A stretch of DNA of 33,420 bases. It comes from Microcaldota archaeon (GTDB lineage Archaea; Micrarchaeota; Micrarchaeia; Anstonellales; Bilamarchaeaceae). The notes under the pieces are model-generated. The model ran no database searches. It had not been told where the DNA came from and saw nothing but the letters and a program-made list of their open reading frames with translations. The DNA lies in the NCBI GenBank assembly GCA_014727975.1, contig WJMK01000007.1, positions 1 to 33,420 of the forward strand, written 5' to 3'. Below, piece after piece: positions 31,882-32,989 of this stretch; within the stretch, counting starts at the first letter, position 1, and every line of letters starts with the position of its first letter. The position numbers and the translations under genes are program-made.

Positions 31882-32106
31882 ATGACAGAAAAAAGACCTT
31901 TTGATGTTTTGAACAACGCACTGAACAACACTGTTGTTATTGGCCTTAAGGGAGGAGTGACCTTCCGCGGCATCCTTGCTGCGTATGATGTCCACATGAA
32001 CCTGGTGCTCGAGAAAACCGAGCTCCTTGAGAACGATGAAGTGAAGAAGGGCATCGGAACCTGCCTCCTCCGCGGAGACAGCGTTGTCTATATCTCCCCT
32101 TCCTAG
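31882..32106 (+). CDS. Sm-like (LSm) RNA-binding protein
   Basis: A 74-residue archaeal LSm protein, expected to form a heptameric ring that binds U-rich RNA. The Sm1 motif covers NNTVVIGLKGGVTFRGILAAYDVHMNLVLEKTEL, with the D-x-H-M-N-L core, and Sm2 is GTCLLRGDSVVYISP, with the conserved RG. GGTG lies 7 bases before ATG 31882, and a TAATATTAAAAAC box is centred about 45 bp upstream. A short G/C hairpin and tRNA-Ala follow the stop within 50 bp. Confidence 0.94.
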   Translation: MTEKRPFDVLNNALNNTVVIGLKGGVTFRGILAAYDVHMNLVLEKTELLENDEVKKGIGTCLLRGDSVVYISPS

Positions 32107-32151: not shown

Positions 32152-32223
32152 GGGCTTGTAGCTCAGTAGTAGAGCGCTCCCTTGGCATGGGAGAGGCCGG
32201 GGGTGCGACTCCCCCCAAGTCCA
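32152..32223 (+). tRNA. tRNA-Ala(GGC)
   Basis: A complete cloverleaf: acceptor GGGCTTG with CAAGTCC, including the G3-U70 pair that identifies alanine tRNAs; D-stem GCTC/GAGC with loop AGTAGTA; anticodon stem CTCCC/GGGAG with loop TTGGCAT (anticodon GGC); variable loop AGGCC; T-stem GGGGG/CCCCC with loop TGCGACT; discriminator A at 32223. CCA is not encoded. Two unusual positions: 18 is A (normally G) and 55 is G (normally U, made pseudouridine), while G19 and C56 are kept. No intron is present. Confidence 0.95.
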
Positions 32224-32346: not shown

Positions 32347-32763
32347 TTACTTGAACGGGTTTGTTGCATTCATCCACTTTACTTTCTCAAAATCCTTTTC
32401 ATTTTCGGTAAGAATTTCCTTAATCCCGTTTTCCTGCATTGTTGCAGCGAGGAGCGCATCAAAGAAATGGATTCCATAAGCATTAGAAACGGAAAGCGCT
32501 TCAACCACAGTGCCCCCGGAATACTCCAACAGCGTAGAAAGCTTCATGAACCCGAACAGGTACTCCTTTACTGTTTCATGGTCCACTCCGGGCCGGGCTT
32601 TCTCGCGCAGCACCCTTGAAAACTCCACCAGGTTCTGCACGCTGATGCACATCCTTTTCTCATTTACCAGTTTTTCTATTGTTTCCACTGCTTTTTTGTG
32701 CCTTTTCTCCCCTTTCTGCACGGAATAGATAAGCACGTTTGTATCCACGAGCACCTTACTCAT
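32347..32763 (-). CDS. vapC: PIN-domain toxin, VapC family
   Basis: A 138-residue PIN-domain ribonuclease. The acidic active-site residues are in place: D7 in VLVDTNVLIY, E47 in NLVEFSR, D102 in HFFDALLAATM and D124 in ENEKDFE. VapC toxins cut tRNA or rRNA and are held inactive by the partner antitoxin. Its start overlaps the upstream antitoxin gene by 8 bp, the usual coupled arrangement. The gene lies next to tRNA-Ala, on the opposite strand. Confidence 0.92.
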   Translation of the reverse strand: MSKVLVDTNVLIYSVQKGEKRHKKAVETIEKLVNEKRMCISVQNLVEFSRVLREKARPGVDHETVKEYLFGFMKLSTLLEYSGGTVVEALSVSNAYGIHFFDALLAATMQENGIKEILTENEKDFEKVKWMNATNPFK

Positions 32764-32989
32764 AAATCTCAGCCCGCTTCTTGTACATCCTGTAGCTGAA
32801 GCTCACTCCCTCCTTCAGCTTCCTGAAGAATTCCTCTTTGAGCTCTGTTTTGCTCTTTTTCTCCATCCCTCTAAGGGCTTCAGAGACAATCTCGCTGAGT
32901 GAGCCTTTCTTCCCCCCGTATTTCTCCTGCGCAAGCTTCCTTAGCTTTTTTTCATCTTCATCGTCAAGTGAAAGGTAAATGTTTCCCAT
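32756..32989 (-). CDS. vapB: VapB-type antitoxin (probable ribbon-helix-helix)
   Basis: A 77-residue protein upstream of and overlapping vapC. The N-terminal part (GNIYLSLDDEDEKKLRKLAQ, then GSLSEIVSEALRGM) has the beta-strand plus two-helix pattern of ribbon-helix-helix DNA-binding antitoxins. The charged C-terminal part (TELKEEFFRKLKEG) would wrap the toxin. GTGAGG lies just before the ATG at 32989. The dyad at 32998-33022 overlaps the likely transcription start and could be its own operator. Confidence 0.85.
   Translation of the reverse strand: MGNIYLSLDDEDEKKLRKLAQEKYGGKKGSLSEIVSEALRGMEKKSKTELKEEFFRKLKEGVSFSYRMYKKRAEIYE

Follow-up and report, generated by a model that had tools for sequence, protein, structure and literature searches.

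In the canonical tRNA elbow, where D-loop and T-loop meet, residue 18 inserts between residues 57 and 58 and forms a single-hydrogen-bond pair with pseudouridine 55 (PMC4810234). A study cited in the same source ties this 18-55 pair to rapid translocation. The combination of G18 with pseudouridine 55 (psi55) is taken as universally conserved in reviews, and a T-loop review which makes no mention of G55 describes psi55 as the most universally conserved tRNA modification (PMC7912444). Outside tRNA a loop of the sequence type UGNRA is known as a type R1 lonepair triloop whose G commonly contacts an adenine from outside the loop, giving a composite GNRA tetraloop (Barrick and Breaker, PMC2258182). 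Additionally, U-turns can begin with G (PMC5311481).

Here, we describe an archaeal alanine tRNA gene with A18 and G55 in place of G18 and U55. A literature search limited to CC-licensed papers yielded no description of A18-G55 in tRNA, so that this elbow is apparently undescribed for tRNA, with structural precedent existing outside of it. Very probably the gene product is an essential alanine tRNA of the ordinary kind, in which A18-G55 serves as an alternative inter-loop pair at the elbow.

The tRNA-Ala(GGC) gene and its neighbourhood

The window (the whole analysed stretch of 33,420 nucleotides from a Microcaldota archaeon) contains the following features at and around this gene, with tRNA positions in standard numbering:

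31882..32106, + strand, LSm (Sm-like) protein gene directly upstream of the tRNA (Pfam PF01423, 71 bits; ORF)
32152..32223, + strand, tRNA-Ala(GGC) gene with alternative elbow, CCA not encoded (ARAGORN; Rfam RF00005)
32154, + strand, G3, which pairs with U70 as alanine identity element (sequence)
32168, + strand, A18 in the D-loop in place of G18 (sequence; RF00005 alignment; kept in relatives)
32169, + strand, G19, which pairs with C56, outer elbow pair retained (sequence)
32184..32186, + strand, anticodon GGC (ARAGORN)
32204..32208, + strand, U54-G55-C56-G57-A58, a UGNRA-type T-loop with G55 at 32205 in place of U55 (sequence; class consensus; motif description in PMC2258182)
32220, + strand, U70, partner of G3 in the alanine identity element (sequence)
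32347-32763, - strand, gene of a PIN-domain protein (PF01850), convergent with the tRNA and separated from its end by 124 nt
32756-32989, - strand, small partner gene upstream of and overlapping the PIN-domain gene, forming with it a VapBC-like toxin-antitoxin pair

ARAGORN and Rfam RF00005 agree on the exact ends of the tRNA, the only RNA gene detected in the window, and its RF00005 match of 66.1 bits against a gathering threshold of 29 places it among cloverleaf-folded tRNAs. Its D-loop reads A14 G15 U16 A18 G19 U20 A21 and its T-loop U54 G55 C56 G57 A58 C59 U60. Pairing is complete in each of the four stems, and the contacts G15-C48, G19-C56 and U54-A58 are all in place. With G3-U70 and an anticodon that reads GCN codons the gene is a tRNA-Ala; it lacks both G18 and U55 of the canonical elbow and keeps the neighbouring G19-C56. 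The earlier note, which had described an alanine tRNA with A18 and G55, intact stems and G3-U70, thus proved correct in every detail checked. As to the neighbouring PIN-domain gene, many VapC toxins cleave tRNAs.

The earlier note had also pointed out that position 55 cannot be pseudouridylated, which stands since the sequence has G55 and no U. Formation of psi55 by Pus10 is not possible at G55, and the modification would be lost from this tRNA, while nearly all other tRNAs retain U55. Loss of the psi55 synthase as the driver of the change was rejected: Pus10 is intact in this genome and finds a match in 40 of 42 genomes.

Coupling of positions 18 and 55 and its distribution

The 2.9 million viral contigs of IMG/VR were scanned with four patterns identical save for positions 18 and 55. 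A18/G55 was returned from 87 contigs, A18/U55 from two and G18/U55 from at least 120, and no contig had G18/G55. A second set comprises 535 scored unique tRNAs on fetched loci that had not been selected by the search pattern; it contains 454 tRNAs with G18/U55, 74 with A18/G55, six with G18/C55 and one with C18/G55, and none with either A18/U55 or G18/G55. The resulting Fisher p of about 2e-92 for the 18/55 coupling is not to be taken literally, because relatedness was not corrected for and inflates the counts; yet the swap occurs in different isoacceptors of different phyla. Counted independently of D-loop length, U55 goes with GG in 751 cases and G55 with AG in 118, the crosses amounting to 2 and 5, several of which are alignment slips (e.g., A18-G19-G20). 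Within the G55 class (n = 118) the consensus is UGNRA, with U54 in 115, C56 in 118, R57 in 118 and A58 in 115 of the members. The coordinated change that had been suspected from this one gene is therefore borne out by near-perfect coupling across independent tRNAs, and, as judged from covariation, A18/G55 is a true covarying pair that recurs in archaea, bacteria and phages.

For Micrarchaeota a pattern left free at both positions was used, and a hand count of the matches listed gave 60 genes with A18/G55, six with A18/U55, none with G18/G55, 71 with G18/U55 and 13 with G18/C55. Among these matches G55 never occurs without A18, and A18 occurs occasionally with U55. This asymmetry suggests that A18 may have arisen first and that G55 followed. 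The coupling is not absolute in the A18 direction, since a tRNA-Thr(CGT) with A18 and U55 is kept in three species (G000:C28:6202-6273, corresponding to L005 1501-1572 on the - strand, in the genome of the window, and also G003:C66 and G004:C15). This tRNA-Thr can be regarded as a discordant or an intermediate state. The 13 listed G18/C55 genes represent another route to the loss of psi55 (Micrarchaeota genomes G015, G072, G082, G121, G128, G174, G196, G197, G200, G208 and G225).

One exact pattern run over GTDB genomes gave 106 stretches, mostly tRNA-Ala of Micrarchaeota and Woesearchaeota. Verrucomicrobia contributed tRNA-Phe, -Met and -Ile and Pelagibacteraceae tRNA-Phe, and there were single matches in Actinomadura, Anaerolineae, Deltaproteobacteria and Kazan. 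In Micrarchaeota A18/G55 is present in 54 of 301 genomes with 78 genes, all of them alanine tRNAs by anticodon save two tRNA-Thr(GGT). In bacteria and phages it is found in tRNA-Phe, -Met, -Gly, -Ile and many others.

Several clustered tRNA arrays of bacteria and viral contigs consist almost wholly of A18/G55 genes, e.g., 37 of 39 in L192 (3405-7643 of CALDQK010000138.1, G303:C138) and all 27 in L253; L252, L278, L110 and L118 are further examples. In the bacterial bins checked such arrays stand alongside a canonical chromosomal tRNA set. Two of these bins, G302 and G303 (those of L118 and L192), gave no TruB match, and 36 scattered chromosomal tRNAs checked in them are all canonical with U55, which makes assembly gaps the likelier cause; the missing TruB is thus probably explained by such gaps. 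Viral matches with A18/G55 (L200-L286) include 46 tRNA-Gly(GCC) and 15 tRNA-Met(CAT), and this suggests a few phage lineages, each carrying a single A18/G55 tRNA. No G55 was found in the tRNAs of mycobacteriophage Willis and Stenotrophomonas phage Piffle.

Conservation, alanine decoding and alternative explanations

The tRNA-Ala(GGC) is identical over 72 of 72 positions in three other species of the genus (G001, G003 and G004), and in a fourth (G002) it shows 96% identity with three differing sites and keeps A18/G55. In all four genomes it is again the end of the LSm gene that precedes the tRNA, and flank comparison shows that the spacer and the DNA beyond the tRNA are unrelated in sequence. 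An identical tRNA amid diverged flanks means that A18 and G55 are under purifying selection and are not errors. A18/G55 is moreover common to the family, which together with the identical gene in three genomes goes far beyond what chance would produce. No relative with G18/U55 at this locus was found, all four having A18/G55 beside LSm, and the earlier view of a functional gene is upheld by its conservation in relatives and by its intact stems and identity elements. That the genome is a fragmented draft of 55 contigs speaks for a sequencing error, an assembly error or a pseudogene. However, the identical gene occurs in three independently assembled genomes, and both changes are common to many others, including the complete ones of Micrarchaeum sp. 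A_DKE (NZ_CP060530.1) and Fermentimicrarchaeum limneticum Sv326 (CP058998.1), so that binning or assembly cannot be the only cause. Such an error or decay has a practically negligible probability and was rejected on the identical genes of the relatives; A18/G55 is a working alternative way of building the tRNA corner.

From the unusual elbow, which is its sole support, the earlier note had considered a specialised tRNA used outside translation, like some bacterial tRNA-Gly. This proposal fails on gene content. Among 44 tRNA hits in the genome of the window there is no second tRNA-Ala(GGC), and all identity elements of the single gene are intact. The same genome carries A18/G55 also in an intron-bearing Ala(TGC) gene (C10:44162-44322), the ARAGORN label of which (Ser) is wrong: its ends match the window gene by 94%, and in G001 its orthologue carries the label Ala(TGC). 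Intron-bearing A18/G55 alanine tRNAs are mislabelled by ARAGORN as Pro or Ser both here (L064) and in G005:C13:55517-55623 (L077). Ala(CGC) with a GUCU D-stem (C13:18723-18794) belongs to a different gene lineage and has the canonical elbow, likewise in G003 and G004. A full survey of G002, which is 95% complete, gave 43 distinct tRNAs, of which 40 are canonical and three, all of them for alanine, have A18/G55; no canonical tRNA-Ala was found among the 43. Every alanine isoacceptor has A18/G55 in G002, G013, G021 and others. As the alanine set of G002 consists of A18/G55 genes only, such tRNAs must decode alanine codons, and they are presumably aminoacylated and used on ribosomes. A redundant copy beside a normal decoder, as it would be expected of a tRNA with another function, is seen neither for Ala(GGC) in the genome of the window nor in G002. 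A role outside translation is thus unlikely, indeed highly improbable, and was rejected on the gene content of both genomes. Only slightly more credit can be given to acquisition from, or conversion by, mobile tRNA arrays or phages rich in A18/G55 elbows. It could draw on the nearly uniform arrays mentioned above, but the gene is of the native archaeal tRNA-Ala type with a fixed LSm linkage in the genus, and the listed matches of Micrarchaeota and Woesearchaeota are of alanine type with archaeal acceptor stems whereas the arrays carry other isoacceptors; we consider this origin very unlikely.

Another reading takes the elbow variant as an identity or anti-identity mark specific to alanine, where A18 or the loss of G18/psi55 may have co-evolved with alanyl-tRNA synthetase (AlaRS) or may exclude other enzymes. 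It would fit the almost exclusive alanine specificity of these tRNAs in Micrarchaeota, which extends to the Woesearchaeota matches examined, as well as the canonical elbows of the 40 non-alanine tRNAs in G002. The C-Ala domain of AlaRS binds the elbow (PMC10036535), and in Caenorhabditis elegans it reads G18 via a lysine near a GG motif (PMC10485164); the near-restriction to tRNA-Ala is suggestive because AlaRS contacts the elbow. However, the GG motif and the lysine do not follow the elbow state among relatives, the genome of the window mixes A18/G55 and G18/U55 alanine tRNAs under presumably one AlaRS, and elsewhere the swap affects tRNAs for many other amino acids, as listed above for bacteria and phages. 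Co-evolution with AlaRS was rejected as a candidate after inspection of the C-Ala GG motif in the AlaRS genes of 31 relatives, where no residue tracks the elbow state; the assembly of the window's own genome lacks an AlaRS gene. A broader formulation assumes two interchangeable elbow chemistries (G18-psi55 and A18-G55), the second of which would serve in Micrarchaeota as an alanine mark that C-Ala or further factors binding the elbow recognise in a positive or a negative sense. In either formulation an alanine mark is doubtful, although less improbable than the explanations discussed before.

The A18-G55 elbow in comparison with known systems

The reading that we prefer, an ordinary alanine tRNA with an alternative inter-loop pair, takes its structural model from the UGNRA loop. 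Positions 54-58 read TGCGA (32204-32208) and match this motif, and the outside adenine that goes with its G is indicated at the sequence level by the covariation of 18 and 55. G55 would start the turn in place of U, with G19-C56, U54-A58 and R57 retained. A18 would act as the outside adenine, occupying the place normally held by G18: it may slot between R57 and A58 and pair with G55 in a GNRA-like composite fold. We infer both the pairing geometry and the three-dimensional fold from sequence. Such a model would explain why 18 and 55 change jointly, why G18/G55 is absent and why G19-C56 remains untouched. Historically, a compensatory swap may have proceeded via an A18/U55 intermediate, the pair being held by purifying selection afterwards. 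The link of the 18-55 pair to translocation and its conservation, described as universal in reviews, imply that A18/G55 may carry a cost; a functional penalty appears to be absent as far as can be deduced here. As the earlier note had proposed, recognition by RNase P, the CCA enzyme, EF1A or the ribosome might be altered.

Reportedly, suppressor tRNAs obtained by the Steinberg laboratory from randomised D- and T-loops indicate that alternative combinations of these loops can support function. A natural covarying alternative without G18 and psi55 in essential tRNAs offers natural pairs that allow a direct test of the need for these residues, and the functions that can be addressed include translocation, elbow-binding enzymes and the reading of G18 by AlaRS C-Ala. 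Moreover, tRNA models that score 18/55 as fixed penalise real genes.

With canonical archaeal tRNA-Ala the tRNA of the window shares the cloverleaf, G3-U70, G15-C48, G19-C56, U54-A58 and 7-nt loops. In contrast with these canonical forms, which have G18 and U55, it has A18 and G55 and hence no psi55 made by Pus10. In eukaryotic tRNA-Ala, too, unusual purine-purine pairs take the place of conserved tertiary contacts (Westhof et al. 2020, PMC7566577). They involve positions 15/48 and 54/58, however, and none is reported from archaea, whereas the present swap affects 18/55 and is found in archaea, bacteria and phages alike. The UGNRA T-loop of rRNA and of the TPP riboswitch has the same U-G-N-R-A sequence together with a candidate outside adenine (PMC2258182). 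Compared with these RNAs, the present case is the D-loop/T-loop elbow of a tRNA, with a contact that is predicted here from its sequence signature.
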